IMG/VR virus record: IMGVR_UViG_3300023180_000162
Location: 1-38,005 of that record
DNA length: 38,005 bases
Direction: 5' to 3' (one strand)
DNA from: a virus
The notes beneath the pieces are model-generated. The model made no database searches, was not told the origin of the DNA, and worked only from the letters and a program-made list of their open reading frames with translations. Both the position numbers and the translations under genes were made by a program. Below are positions 12,248 to 18,351 of the stretch, piece by piece (within the stretch, counting starts at the first letter, position 1; each line of letters begins with the position of its first letter).

Positions 12248-12847
12248 TCAAGTAAAGACAGAGTTGATCAAGATGCGAGACTGATGCTCGCTAGGAGAGT
12301 GCCCAGTGTGGGCGTACCTTCCATTAAATAATACCACACGTCCTGGCTTGGGTGAGATACGTCTCTTGACCTCTACATTATCGGGGAGGTTCAAGGTCAT
12401 GTCAAGCTTCCATTGTGCCAGTTCCATATTTGTCAGTTGCTTGTCATAGATCACGGTGTCACCATCAGTTTCATTGATGTACACAATACAAGCAACATGA
12501 TCTTCACCAATGTCAATGTGTGGTGGGTGAAGATATGGTGGTTTATGAAGTACGGTCATGTCTAATCTACAGCGCATGATATTATCTGCCTGTAGATTGT
12601 CTTTGATCTGATAGATCAATGGAGCAATAAAGAAAGCACAACCTGTATCTAAAAATCGATTGGGTTCCCAGGGAGGGACAATGCCCTGTGAGAACCCAAA
12701 GTCTTCCAGCTTCTCAGAAGAATAGTCCAGAGATTGTGAACTCTGAAAATGCCAATGGAAGTCGGTGCCTGTCAGTAGAGTTTGTAACTCCTTCAGATAA
12801 GAAGGAGAAACAAAATCATCTATGACTTCAATATCAACCTGCCTCAT
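12248..12847 (-). CDS. 2OG-Fe(II) oxygenase (prolyl-hydroxylase-like)
   Basis: A 199-aa protein with the full classical facial triad: H110-I-D112 (PPHIDIGEDHVACIVYIN), distal H180 (LFNGRYAHTGH) and R191 (SEHQSRILINSVF). The sequence begins VDIEVIDDFVS, a common start for prolyl-4-hydroxylase-like proteins. It lies between the sliding clamp (14-nt overlap) and gene 44 (2-nt gap), so a dioxygenase is translated between two replisome components. Function unknown. Confidence 0.85.
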   Translation of the reverse strand: MRQVDIEVIDDFVSPSYLKELQTLLTGTDFHWHFQSSQSLDYSSEKLEDFGFSQGIVPPWEPNRFLDTGCAFFIAPLIYQIKDNLQADNIMRCRLDMTVLHKPPYLHPPHIDIGEDHVACIVYINETDGDTVIYDKQLTNMELAQWKLDMTLNLPDNVEVKRRISPKPGRVVLFNGRYAHTGHSPSEHQSRILINSVFT

Positions 12848-13514: not shown

Positions 13515-13923
13515 AGGTTTCAGTCTCAGTAGATTGTTCAACAAAATTATACAGTAGGACGCAGTAGTGAATTGCTTTCAAGATGTCATTCTTGGCACTG
13601 CCCTTCTTATCATAACGGCTCAAATACTTAATCGCATTGCTACGGCAGAAGGGTTCACCATCGCCAATGGAAGCAATCAGATCAAGAGTCTGAGTGGGAG
13701 ATTTATCAGAAGTATAGTGCTGACGATACGTCGAAGCAATATAGTCCTTGGCAGTTTTAAGAACTGCGTCCTCATTGAATCGATAATGAGGGAGAGATTC
13801 GTTTACGTTCACATTAAAAATACTGTCAGGTCCGACATAATCTACAACAGGTTCTCTGTCATAGTTCAAAACAATTTTATCTTCTTCCATAGCATCATAA
13901 AGCAGGGACCAAGAGTTAACCAT
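13501..13923 (-). CDS. DUF3310-family protein (140 aa)
   Basis: The C-terminal part resembles DUF3310, a small phage family sometimes labelled nucleotide kinase: an HY...S.TLDLI stretch, then FCRSNAIKYLSRYDKKG, then DILKAIHYCVLLYNF. The N-terminal 60 residues are unrecognised and acidic. The ATG at 13923 overlaps the pebS stop by 8 nt; longer readings run into pebS and begin at non-family residues. Enzymatic activity of DUF3310 is not established. It is placed between the bilin reductase and the sliding clamp. Confidence 0.75.
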   Translation of the reverse strand: MVNSWSLLYDAMEEDKIVLNYDREPVVDYVGPDSIFNVNVNESLPHYRFNEDAVLKTAKDYIASTYRQHYTSDKSPTQTLDLIASIGDGEPFCRSNAIKYLSRYDKKGSAKNDILKAIHYCVLLYNFVEQSTETETYETF

Positions 13924-14542
13924 AGGTAAAGAGGAAGTCATTGACCAAAGACTCTGCCTTCTCCTTACCAAATGTACTAGCAAGATATCCACCAACAGGA
14001 TCAAGTCGCGTCATGTACTTATCGAAGTCAGAGTAAGTGGAAGACATGTCCAGCCCATTGGGCTTCTTACATTCTACCATATCCTTGTAAATGGTCAAGT
14101 ATTTCTTGAACATCTCAAGGTGATCATTAACCTCAGACATCGTACACTTGGCAACATAGATGTTCTCAGAGAAGTGATTACCTGGCTCAAAGAACCTATA
14201 ATCACCCTCTGCCTTAGGGAGATCTGGATGAGAAAACAGGTAGTTCTCTACTGGATGCTGGAAGTCAAATACCAAGATGACCTTCTTCTCAAAGAAACCC
14301 ATCAAGTCCATCCCAAAGCAAGGGAGGTTAGATCCAGTCTTAGGATAGATGATCGTGTTATAGATACACGACTTCTCACTCCAAATCAAAACCTCTCGTG
14401 ACTTAGCAATGTATTGGTTGCTGTAGATCTTAGCAGAGAGGGAGGTTCCTTTCTCCTCCCAGTCTGCCCAGTCACAGATGTTTTCTAGATCAGGGAAGGT
14501 CTCAGAGACCGCCCGCTGATACTCAATCCACAGATCCTTCAT
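13916..14542 (-). CDS. pebS: Ferredoxin-dependent bilin reductase, PebS-like
   Basis: PebS is the cyanophage phycoerythrobilin synthase, reducing biliverdin IXalpha to phycoerythrobilin in two ferredoxin-dependent steps. This 208-aa protein aligns by eye with the P-SSM2 PebS that I remember: YNTIIYPKTGSNLPCFGMDL, then VILVFDFQHP, YRFFEPGNHFSENIYV, YSDFDKYMTRLDPV, and the C-terminal VNDFLFTY. The two catalytic aspartates (105 and 206 in P-SSM2) correspond to D79 and D181 here, spaced 102 rather than 101. It is about 25 residues shorter, all at the N-terminus. It could instead be a related FDBR with different product, but both aspartates favour PebS. It overlaps cobS by 20 nt and the DUF3310 gene by 8 nt. 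Confidence 0.92.
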   Translation of the reverse strand: MKDLWIEYQRAVSETFPDLENICDWADWEEKGTSLSAKIYSNQYIAKSREVLIWSEKSCIYNTIIYPKTGSNLPCFGMDLMGFFEKKVILVFDFQHPVENYLFSHPDLPKAEGDYRFFEPGNHFSENIYVAKCTMSEVNDHLEMFKKYLTIYKDMVECKKPNGLDMSSTYSDFDKYMTRLDPVGGYLASTFGKEKAESLVNDFLFTYG

Positions 14543-15584
14543 CGATGCTCACCTCAGCGTCAACTTTGTCATACAACTCCAGAAAGGCTTGCTTGGTCTC
14601 ATCGTCAAAGCGAGAGATACATGCCTTGATTGCCTTTGCCTTATCATTAAAGATAGCATAGGCACGGGCGATGTGAACAAGGCGACGAGTGGAGATGATC
14701 TCATCAATGCCACCATCAGCAAAGGTCTTGCGGATGATGTCTGCCCAGTCACAGAGATTACGATTGAACATCTCATCCTCACAGTGGTGAGCCAAGATCT
14801 TCTGCTCGATAGCAGGAGTAGGATACTCCTGCTCGAAGGTCACAGGGAAGCGCTCAAGGAATGCTTCATTAAGAACGTTAGTGCCAACAAAGCGACCGTC
14901 ATCGCTACCCTTACCCTTGGTGTTAGCAGTAGCAACTACGGTGAAACCAGGAGCTGCCTTGACATACTTACCAATCTTCTTGAGAAAGACACCCTTACCT
15001 TCAAGAACAGACTGGAGACACAGGATCTTGTTAGATGCCAGGTCAACCTCGTCTAGAAGCAGCACAGCTCCGCGTGAAAGAGCCTCCACGACGGGTCCAT
15101 TATGCCAGACAGTTTCGCCATTAACAAGACGGAAACCACCAATAAGATCATCCTCGTCAGTCTCAATGGTGATGTTTACACGAATGAGCTCTCTATTTAG
15201 AGCGGCACATGCTTGCTCAACACCAAAGGACTTGCCATTACCAGACAGACCAGTAATGAAAACAGGGTAGAAGAAGTTGGACTTGATGATCTTCTTGAGA
15301 TCAGCAAAGTTCCCGAACGGGACAAAGGAGGTATCTTTCTCAGGAATCAGGTCCTGATCTTCCCGCTCGGTAACTTGGATAGAAGGAGAAGAAGCATTGA
15401 AAGTCTGCTCAAGACGCTCCTTGACAGTCAGATCCCAAGTACCACGCTTGACCTTATACTCCTCAAGGTGGCGAGTGATCGTATTGTAGGACACTCCAGT
15501 CACCTTGGCATATGCCTTGACCTGAGCAGCATCAATCAGGGTGCCAAATTGTGCGGAGAGTTCAGCGGCAAAGTTGTGGGACAT
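14523..15584 (-). CDS. cobS: CobS-like AAA+ ATPase
   Basis: AAA+ ATPase of the CobS/MoxR group; bacterial CobS with CobT and CobN inserts cobalt into the corrin ring. Residues 1-60 look like a helical DNA/protein-binding start; Walker A GLSGNGKS is at 112-119, Walker B LLLDEVD at 175-181, and VVATANTKG is sensor 1. cobS is a core cyanomyovirus gene. No CobN-like subunit is visible in this window, so the phage protein may assist a host chelatase or act as a MoxR-type chaperone with the CobT-like protein nearby. The start has GAGG 6 nt upstream. A hairpin and TATACT box precede it. Confidence 0.93.
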   Translation of the reverse strand: MSHNFAAELSAQFGTLIDAAQVKAYAKVTGVSYNTITRHLEEYKVKRGTWDLTVKERLEQTFNASSPSIQVTEREDQDLIPEKDTSFVPFGNFADLKKIIKSNFFYPVFITGLSGNGKSFGVEQACAALNRELIRVNITIETDEDDLIGGFRLVNGETVWHNGPVVEALSRGAVLLLDEVDLASNKILCLQSVLEGKGVFLKKIGKYVKAAPGFTVVATANTKGKGSDDGRFVGTNVLNEAFLERFPVTFEQEYPTPAIEQKILAHHCEDEMFNRNLCDWADIIRKTFADGGIDEIISTRRLVHIARAYAIFNDKAKAIKACISRFDDETKQAFLELYDKVDAEVSIDEGSVD

Positions 15585-15640: not shown

Positions 15641-16270
15641 CTAGTGGACAGTTAATCCACTGCCTGCCCCGTAGCCAAAGGTGCCCCTGGGGAAGACATC
15701 AAATCCAATACAGTATCTAGTTCTTCCAGAAAGGTTCTTCTCTACGTTATGAATCAACTGACTAGGGAAGGCAATGATCTTCCCTGTCTCTGGTCTCCAT
15801 CGCCAAGACTTACCAGTAAACAAATTATACCCATCACAATCTGGCTCAAGCGTAGGCATAAAGCAATTAGGAAAATGCTGCCCCTTTTCAAATACAAGAT
15901 CCCCACTGTCGGGACCAACATCCAGATAATATACACCGCTGAATACAGCGTTCATGTGACAATGATTTTGAGCCCAATCATTTTCACCATGCTTAACACC
16001 CCAACCCCTCACAACATCCATGTAGACATTATGAGAAACGTTGAGGTATTCGTGAGCGAAGTATTTGATTGCGTCTTTAATTTCTAACTGAAGATCTTTC
16101 AAGTCAGGAATCTCCCAGATATTTCTCTCGTAAGAGATCCATCCATTGTCAGTGGCAGTGCGGTGGTAGTTAAGATTCTCCACCGCTTTCATCCATTTCT
16201 TTTGGACAGGGATAACACTCTCAAATACTGGAGTGGGAAACAAAGAATGAATTTGAGGACGTGGTGTCAT
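15641..16270 (-). CDS. 2OG-Fe(II) oxygenase family protein
   Basis: A 209-aa TIGR02466/PF13759-type oxygenase. It opens with IHSLFPTPVFESVIP, the characteristic start of this family. Candidate iron ligands are H103 and H105 (QNHCHMNAVFSGVYYLDV) and H174 (IIAFPSQLIHNVEKN); R183 or R185 would hold 2-oxoglutarate. It is coupled to the CobT-like gene by ATGA and separates it from cobS. The C-terminal tail is glycine-rich. Substrate unknown. Confidence 0.87.
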   Translation of the reverse strand: MTPRPQIHSLFPTPVFESVIPVQKKWMKAVENLNYHRTATDNGWISYERNIWEIPDLKDLQLEIKDAIKYFAHEYLNVSHNVYMDVVRGWGVKHGENDWAQNHCHMNAVFSGVYYLDVGPDSGDLVFEKGQHFPNCFMPTLEPDCDGYNLFTGKSWRWRPETGKIIAFPSQLIHNVEKNLSGRTRYCIGFDVFPRGTFGYGAGSGLTVH

Positions 16271-18351
16271 GCGATCATTGTTATAAATTCAGAAAGAATG
16301 CGCTTGCTGGTCTTACGGTTACCGAGTGCTTTCTTAAAAGCGGTACGGATCTGAGCCTTGCTTGCGTCTTCAGCAACCTCAAAAGAATTGCCGCTGTCAC
16401 TGATTGACTTACTGTGAATGAAAAGAGAACGACTGTAGTTGGAAGTCTTACCAATGTAGCATTTCTCTTTCTTCCACTGAGTCTCTGCCTTCACACGCTC
16501 CTCAAAGGTAGGGAGATAGTAACGCTTAACGCTAGTAAAGTCGGAAGTAGAGCAGAGACGAATGTTAATAAAATTACACTGAGGGAAATTCTCTTGAAGG
16601 TTCTGAACTAGAACCTCAGTCTGATTGTCACCAGCATAATAACCACCAGTGAAAAGAGGATAAACCCTTCCAGTCTTGCGATCACGGAGACGAGACTGGT
16701 GGCAGGTTCTACGGACGATCCGATCAAAACCTTTATCAGTTTCGTGGGCTTGCCAACGCATTAGCGGGCAACCTTCACCATCAGTGAGAACAACAACGTG
16801 AACCTTTTCTGCCTTACTGTGCTGCTGGAACTGCTTAATCAACTGGTGCTGAACAAGCAGCGCTTCATTGAGAGGAGTTCCAGAGAGGTACATCTTGCTG
16901 GGAATGCCAACACCATACTGGCGATTAGTGAATGCCCAAGCGTAAGAGAAAAGACGATGAGCAAGAAGATCCTGCTCCTTAGTCTTGGCTCGACTGGAGA
17001 GAACGTTCACCAAAGCAAACCCTTGAGCGACAAGGGTACCTGCTTTCATCGGAGCAAACATAGTGGTATCAGAATTATACCACTCATTAGTGAAGATGTA
17101 CACATCGTAAGGGATACCAACCTTACGGCAGAACATAGTCAGACAGAGCAACTGCTTCACAGTGTCAAGCAGGACATCTTGCATGGATCCAGACCAGTCA
17201 AGATTAAAGATCAGTCCGTGATTCTTACCATCAGGAACGATATTAATCTTACGGAAGATATCATCGTTGAATTTGTAGGTGTGAAGCTTGTTGGTATCAA
17301 GCACACCAGTCCGAGAAGTGTGCGAGCGAGCATAAGCGCTAGCGGCTTTCTTACACTCAAACTCTTTAACAAGATAGTTTACTTCACGAGCAGAATCTTT
17401 CTTGAACTTATCCCAAAAGGAATTGATGTACTCGTTATCCTCTACTCTAAGACCATGCTCTCCAAAGTAAGCTTCAGTGTAATCATTGAGCTTGGTGTAG
17501 TCAATCACTACCTTGTCCATCTCAAAGACAGGGCGCTCAACGTAATAAATTTCGGGGGAGGAAGAATCGACTAAGTTCTGAAGCTTCTCTCGAAGGAGAG
17601 AATCTGTAACGGCTTCATGATCTTCAGCATGACCAGTTCCACCCTGAGGGATTTCTCCATCAGTAGTAGTGGATTCTGTTTCTTGACTCTGAGATTCGTC
17701 AGTCGATTCTCCTTCCCCGTCATCTATATCTTGGTTCGCCTGATTGGGCGCCTGGGAAGATGCCTGACCCGATTGCTGCTGAGGCAGGTTTTCGGTGGGA
17801 GTCTGAGAAGGACGATCCTCCTCTTCCCTGTAGTATTTATAGATTGCTTCTGCCAAATCGATTACATCTTGGAAACCCTCAAGACGATTGGCTTGATCAA
17901 TAAACTTCTTCTCAACAGAAGAAAAAGAAACATCGAAGAAGTTACCAATCTTGAAGAAGATGTTCAGACGATCAATGATGTTCATCTTGCTGACATCAGT
18001 ATCAGCAACTTCAAAGAAATCATCCTCAGCAAACTGCTGGTACCCTTTGTAGAAAGTCTTAGAAAGACCAGCGTAGCGACGCTTCATCAACTTCTCAATG
18101 CGGATATCTTCAACCACATTGATGTAGGAGTGAGGGCAAGTGTAGTGGAAACGCTCAGTGGGGGTATACAAAGCATGACCCACCTCATGCGAGATCAGGA
18201 GATCAGTAACGTGCTCAGGGGCTTTGTTCCAGTTAGGCAGAGTGAGAACACGAGTGTCCACATTGAACTGGGCAGTCTGAACGTTACGGTTCTCAACGAT
18301 CAGGTCTTCCTGAGCGAGCAACTTGGCGAGAGTACCTTTAACTTCAGACAT
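16267..18351 (-). CDS. CobT-like protein: HEVGH metallopeptidase motif plus VWA domain
   Basis: A 694-aa protein with three visible parts. Near the N-terminus is a zinc-protease signature HEVGH at 55-59, with E81 (VVEDIRIE) as a possible third ligand. Residues about 180-250 are a Q/S/T/E/D-rich linker. The C-terminal half is a von Willebrand factor A domain with the metal-ion-dependent site D385-W-S-G-S389 and a later VVLTDGEG. VWA architecture with an acidic linker is that of CobT, the partner of CobS; the HEVGH motif is as annotated peptidase in cyanophage genomes. Pairing with CobS (MoxR/VWA-type) is inferred from proximity. It could be a peptidase processing virion or host proteins. Confidence 0.85.
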   Translation of the reverse strand: MSEVKGTLAKLLAQEDLIVENRNVQTAQFNVDTRVLTLPNWNKAPEHVTDLLISHEVGHALYTPTERFHYTCPHSYINVVEDIRIEKLMKRRYAGLSKTFYKGYQQFAEDDFFEVADTDVSKMNIIDRLNIFFKIGNFFDVSFSSVEKKFIDQANRLEGFQDVIDLAEAIYKYYREEEDRPSQTPTENLPQQQSGQASSQAPNQANQDIDDGEGESTDESQSQETESTTTDGEIPQGGTGHAEDHEAVTDSLLREKLQNLVDSSSPEIYYVERPVFEMDKVVIDYTKLNDYTEAYFGEHGLRVEDNEYINSFWDKFKKDSAREVNYLVKEFECKKAASAYARSHTSRTGVLDTNKLHTYKFNDDIFRKINIVPDGKNHGLIFNLDWSGSMQDVLLDTVKQLLCLTMFCRKVGIPYDVYIFTNEWYNSDTTMFAPMKAGTLVAQGFALVNVLSSRAKTKEQDLLAHRLFSYAWAFTNRQYGVGIPSKMYLSGTPLNEALLVQHQLIKQFQQHSKAEKVHVVVLTDGEGCPLMRWQAHETDKGFDRIVRRTCHQSRLRDRKTGRVYPLFTGGYYAGDNQTEVLVQNLQENFPQCNFINIRLCSTSDFTSVKRYYLPTFEERVKAETQWKKEKCYIGKTSNYSRSLFIHSKSISDSGNSFEVAEDASKAQIRTAFKKALGNRKTSKRILSEFITMIA

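Follow-up and report, generated by a model that had tools for sequence, protein, structure and literature searches.

Does a widespread phage gene pair that is usually labelled as vitamin B12 genes act in B12 synthesis, or does it do something else? cobS ranks with the most frequent auxiliary metabolic genes found in marine cyanophages and is generally assigned to B12 synthesis; whether it acts in this pathway during infection has been stated to be unknown (PMC9983427). The question is raised here by a 38,005-base virus record, a fragment of a marine T4-like cyanophage, which is referred to as the window. Should the usual partner of cobS be an active protease, the B12 reading would have to change, and point mutants could put the question to the test. 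We favor, with a probability of roughly 55%, the reading that the pair is an ATP-driven MoxR/VWA remodelling metalloprotease of the replication phase rather than a cobaltochelatase.

Gene order in the window

The CobT-like gene (16267..18351) encodes a predicted metallopeptidase-VWA protein of 694 aa that matches phrog_459, labelled 'peptidase', over its full length (E 5.6e-236). The CobS-like gene (14523..15584) encodes a MoxR AAA+ ATPase of 353 aa with a full-length match to phrog_249 (E 3.9e-136), and the two genes thus belong to the known phage pair. Both genes, the oxygenase gene between them and all features within them described below lie on the minus strand. The earlier note had proposed that HEVGH (residues 55–59; 18175..18189) and a VWA MIDAS are joined in one CobT-like ORF; this was borne out, and the MIDAS is complete, with DWSGS at residues 385–389 (17185..17199) accompanied by T492 and D524, as judged from motif and alignment. 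In the phage CobS, both Walker A (residues 112–119; 15228..15251) and Walker B (residues 175–179; 15048..15062) are conserved. An AAA+ protein with both Walker motifs and a VWA protein with a complete MIDAS, the two elements of a MoxR/VWA system, are therefore present together. A helix-turn-helix in the N-terminus of CobS is not claimed, as the Pfam matches reached E-values of 0.025 and 0.11 only. At another viral locus (L022:5426-8470), the CobS gene is split just after Walker B (LLLDE) in a split-intein-like manner, with an N-part containing NAKHPFIV, an intervening 484-aa ORF and a C-part that ends in THN before CDLASN.

CobS lies one gene further on, and the place between is occupied by a 2OG-Fe(II) oxygenase (PF13759 and phrog_81, by domain and family match; 15641..16270). 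The ATG of this gene overlaps the stop of the CobT-like ORF as ATGA, and its end lies 56 bp from the start of CobS, which agrees with the order described earlier from the letters alone. On this basis the oxygenase had been proposed as the hydroxylase subunit of a three-part machine, a proposal favored by the overlap of its start with the peptidase stop and by the presence of the same gene in this position in two close relatives. However, those two relatives, which belong to one clade, account for every homologue found in 70 CobT-like/CobS gaps (2/70), while 35/70 gaps are shorter than 200 bp with no gene between, and the other gaps contain unrelated ORFs. Owing to this distribution, the oxygenase is a local insertion or passenger outside the core pair, and its membership in the machine is highly improbable. 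Two further genes of the window are recorded here as observations. A ferredoxin-dependent bilin reductase (PF05996, phrog_7278; 13916-14542) begins within CobS, sharing the last 20 bp of that gene. A second 2OG oxygenase-like gene (12248-12847) lies between the clamp and clamp-loader genes; its match to PF13640 is below threshold, and its best family, phrog_274, is labelled DNA endonuclease V.

Conserved motifs and predicted fold of the CobT-like protein

For the conservation analysis, 80 viral loci were fetched, which together with the window gave 78 proteins (the window and 77 relatives). D.SGS and ED.R[IV]E were found in 78/78 proteins and HExxH in 77/77 proteins that include its region, the sole protein without it (L062) being cut off by a contig end before that region. 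Such retention indicates that the motifs are not due to chance. All three occur in each of 47 representatives below 88% identity, and HExxH, the second acidic motif and the MIDAS stay unchanged even in relatives with as little as about 31% identity. Among 42 aligned sequences, the invariant positions are H55, E56 and H59 of the presumed zinc-binding and catalytic motif, E81, D82, R84 and E86 of EDIRIE (residues 81–86; 18094..18111), the presumed third-ligand helix, and D385, S387, S389, T492 and D524 of the MIDAS. Both sequence motifs of a zincin-type metallopeptidase, HExxH and a conserved acidic motif downstream, are thus found. A degenerate zinc site in relatives had been named as an observation that would speak against a protease; degeneration is absent from this family, and two more distant phages lack the motif. 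These are Pseudomonas phage nickie, which has SEISK (L252:3483-5567), and Stenotrophomonas phage BUCTxx99, which has REVST (L253:3483-5468). Both retain the CobT-like protein and its AAA+ neighbor despite the loss of HExxH; therefore, peptidase activity is not always needed. HExxH is kept in the proteins of phages GTE7, DLP6, B1VFA, SSU5 and ICP2, and further viral loci carry it in 44/46 ORFs, the other two being short ORFs from loci where the match spans the C-terminal part alone.

The CobT-like protein is found in 467 records of the phage collection. The cyanophage counts, taken by name rather than by record-by-record matching, are identical for the CobT-like protein and CobS (365/61/24; portal, 381/62), as expected if the two proteins are kept or lost together. 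CobS was not seen in the available flanks of the divergent loci L069, L071, L073 and L076, and no relatives were returned when contigs were scanned with the DLP6 protein. HExxH and MIDAS are absent from the two neighbors examined in Staphylococcus phage 676Z, and the motifs are likewise absent from the six genes adjoining the RFC gene in haloarchaeal virus HVTV-1, of which about half the genome was read. Modules of this phage family also appear in cellular assemblies (L087-L099; a Nonlabens isolate, a 'Euryarchaeota' MAG and Planctomycetota MAGs), where they are probably phage contigs in bins.

The full structural model (mean pLDDT 78.6) comprises an N-terminal domain, a disordered linker (residues 183–243; 17623..17805; pLDDT < 50) and a VWA domain (residues 378–600; 16552..17220). 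Among the top Foldseek matches of the full model, beside many unrelated VWA proteins, is the VWA domain of NorD (chains 9qhe and 9qh6), solved with NorQ in NorQD complexes. Modelled alone, the putative N-terminal zincin-like metallopeptidase domain (residues 1–180; 17812..18351) reached a pLDDT of 92.6. The top ranks of its VIA-align 2 search are zinc metallopeptidases, including ArdC, selecase, abylysin, jannalysin, BlaR1, IrrE and Wss1; the best Z is 7.3, and scores of 6–7 are middling on this scale. No Foldseek match of this domain fell below E 0.001, and the PDB sequence search gave no match.

Cellular relatives, hosts and the vitamin B12 label

HExxH is absent from 25/25 cellular CobT, 7/7 CbbO and 9/9 NorD sequences, all drawn from one sampled phylum. 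The CobT set was collected with TIGR01651; CbbO and NorD were chosen as VWA genes next to CbbQ_C genes. In the phage, CobT, CbbO and NorD proteins alike, the MIDAS is preceded by an element of the G-x-[LV]-D type. In profile comparisons, the phage N-terminal domain aligned with the N-terminal region of CbbO at P 5.5e-8 and with CobT at P 0.011, and nothing significant was obtained for NorD, the N-terminus of which has been described as lacking obvious homology (PMC9976466). All 7 CbbO proteins keep HxAAH, with two histidines and no glutamate, and CbbO also retains an ED.RV motif. The phage and CobT families are bridged by a CobT-like ORF of Escherichia phage CMS-2020a (L084), a phage that also encodes a CobS homologue; the protein carries HEVAH and matches both PF06213, the CobT family (6.3e-27), and phrog_459 across the HExxH region (1.8e-6). 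Reading the cellular CobT motif as HDxxxH is doubtful, since the CMS-2020a profile alignment sets HEVAH against DSLAL (a low-scoring domain, 6.4 bits); with either alignment, cellular CobT has no HExxH.

The alignment with CbbO bears on whether the phage machine cuts its target at all. A remodelling or metal-insertion co-chaperone of the NorQD/CbbQO kind, in which HExxH only holds a metal or the structure, would agree with this alignment, with the NorD VWA among the structural matches and with the retention of the protein in nickie and BUCTxx99. Nevertheless, E56 does not vary within the phage family, while CbbO retains the two histidines without the glutamate, which suggests that the glutamate is needed; we regard a non-proteolytic role as improbable.

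The usual auxiliary-metabolic-gene reading of cobS holds that phage CobS and CobT form a cobaltochelatase motor that uses host CobN and raises B12 output, and hijacking of CobN by viral cobST has been suggested (Liu et al. 2021, PMC8651126). In favor of this reading, CobN occurs in 101/101 and CobT in 0/101 genomes of the cyanobacterial host order, and the L084 match to CobT points the same way. CbbQ_C was found in just 1/101 of these genomes, on a contig equal in length to a phage-type contig already recovered. The phage CobS, however, scores 69.3 bits against TIGR01650 (CobS), for which the curated cut-off is 558.55, and it forms a clade of its own, with a moderate tie to cellular CobS (93/83) across long branches; the rooting of this tree is tentative because most MoxR outgroup rows failed the Walker A filter. 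No match to the CobT models TIGR01651, PF06213 or PF11775 was obtained for the window protein, the intact peptidase site is left unexplained by chelation, and the pair is also found in a phage of Escherichia, yet CobN had no match in the E. coli control genome. The absence of CobN from the window, as noted earlier, was confirmed and carries little weight because the window is only a 38 kb virus fragment. A CobN or chelatase partner with proven activity had been named as contrary evidence: CobN is indeed available in the host order, but CobT is lacking there and the phage proteins are not known to have chelation activity. Together, the host counts weaken CobN hijacking, and no more than that; overall, there is a slim chance that the pair is a chelatase motor. 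As a separate observation, a sample of Pseudomonadota showed a CobN-family match in 26/31 CobT-positive genomes and none in 5/31, and Caulobacter vibrioides gave CobT and CobS matches with no CobN match; in both cases the assemblies may be incomplete.

Proposed action in infection and comparison with known systems

The pair repeatedly lies among replication genes. In the window it is near gp46, gp45 and gp44, its surroundings matching T4-type SbcC-like, clamp and clamp-loader PHROG families. Elsewhere, it is flanked by ligase and polymerase (SSU5), primase, ligase and DnaE (nickie), primase and DnaE (BUCTxx99), primase (ICP2), DNA polymerase III alpha (B1VFA), UvsX and gp41 (DLP6), and a replication protein and polymerase (L213); in Gordonia GTE7, two neighbors were tested and no function was assigned. 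This tally covers a few lineages, judged by visual inspection and with no background count for comparison, and gene surroundings give only a weak indication of the target.

In the proposed mechanism, CobS would form a MoxR-type AAA+ ring in which the VWA domain of the CobT-like protein docks, binding the target through its MIDAS, while the flexible linker would join this domain to the N-terminal zinc metallopeptidase domain. By analogy with the twisting mechanism of NorQD (PMC13036017), ATP hydrolysis may put torsion or tension on the target or the linker, and the intact peptidase could then cut the target, a phage or host protein, probably in the replication phase of infection. We infer the complex, zinc binding, proteolysis, timing and target from the features described above. 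Of the remodelling machine first suggested for this locus, the metallopeptidase-type site and a target that is probably not chelation are retained, and the hydroxylase is dropped.

The same machine could instead act late, in assembling virions and processing their structural proteins; this role was suggested for the MoxR and metallopeptidase-vWA genes of jumbo phages by Iyer et al. (2021, PMC7824862). An intact peptidase site would suit this timing equally. The location of the pair beside replication genes in a number of unrelated phages argues against it, as does the lack of a late-promoter motif directly upstream of either the CobT-like or the CobS gene. Moreover, T4-type phages already possess the gp21 prohead protease. 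Late action is therefore considered unlikely, and action in the replication phase remains our preferred reading. An AAA+-coupled metalloprotease that removes or cuts proteins bound to DNA or belonging to the replisome would fit such a role. A broader and tentative proposal is that this protease serves phage genome replication, that its peptidase-dead relatives include the cellular co-chaperones CobT, CbbO and, perhaps, NorD, and that the B12 label of cyanophage cobS is wrong. If true, this would hint at where the N-terminal domains of CobT and CbbO came from; NorD had no significant match here.

The pair and the peptidase fusion have already been published (PMC7824862, PMC8651126). The contrast between intact viral and degenerate cellular sites and the replication neighbourhood are added here, neither having been found in the literature examined. 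Compared by description, the group 2.2 jumbo-phage pair shares the N-terminal metallopeptidase architecture and the pairing and differs in the virion assembly proposed for it (PMC7824862). The viral cobST cluster includes the cyanophage pair by name, and its authors regard the peptidase label as a misannotation (PMC8651126); the intact HExxH found here speaks for that label. Cellular CobST shares the AAA+ and VWA partnership, and its N-terminal domain is linked to that of the phages through proteins such as L084, whereas its CobT lacks HExxH and the phage CobS stands in a separate clade. CbbQO and NorQD share the MoxR/VWA architecture, and CbbO the alignable N-terminal region; they differ in the glutamate-free HxAAH of CbbO and the absence of the motifs from NorD. 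DUF2201_N (PF13203), a putative metallopeptidase, is weakly matched by one relative (L091) at 17.4 bits, below the 23.2-bit cut-off, and the window protein gave no match to it. Closest is the T4-like cyanophage pair of phrog_459 ('peptidase') and phrog_249 ('porphyrin biosynthesis', CobS), which agrees with the window in families, order and neighbourhood and differs from it in the 2OG oxygenase inserted between the two genes.
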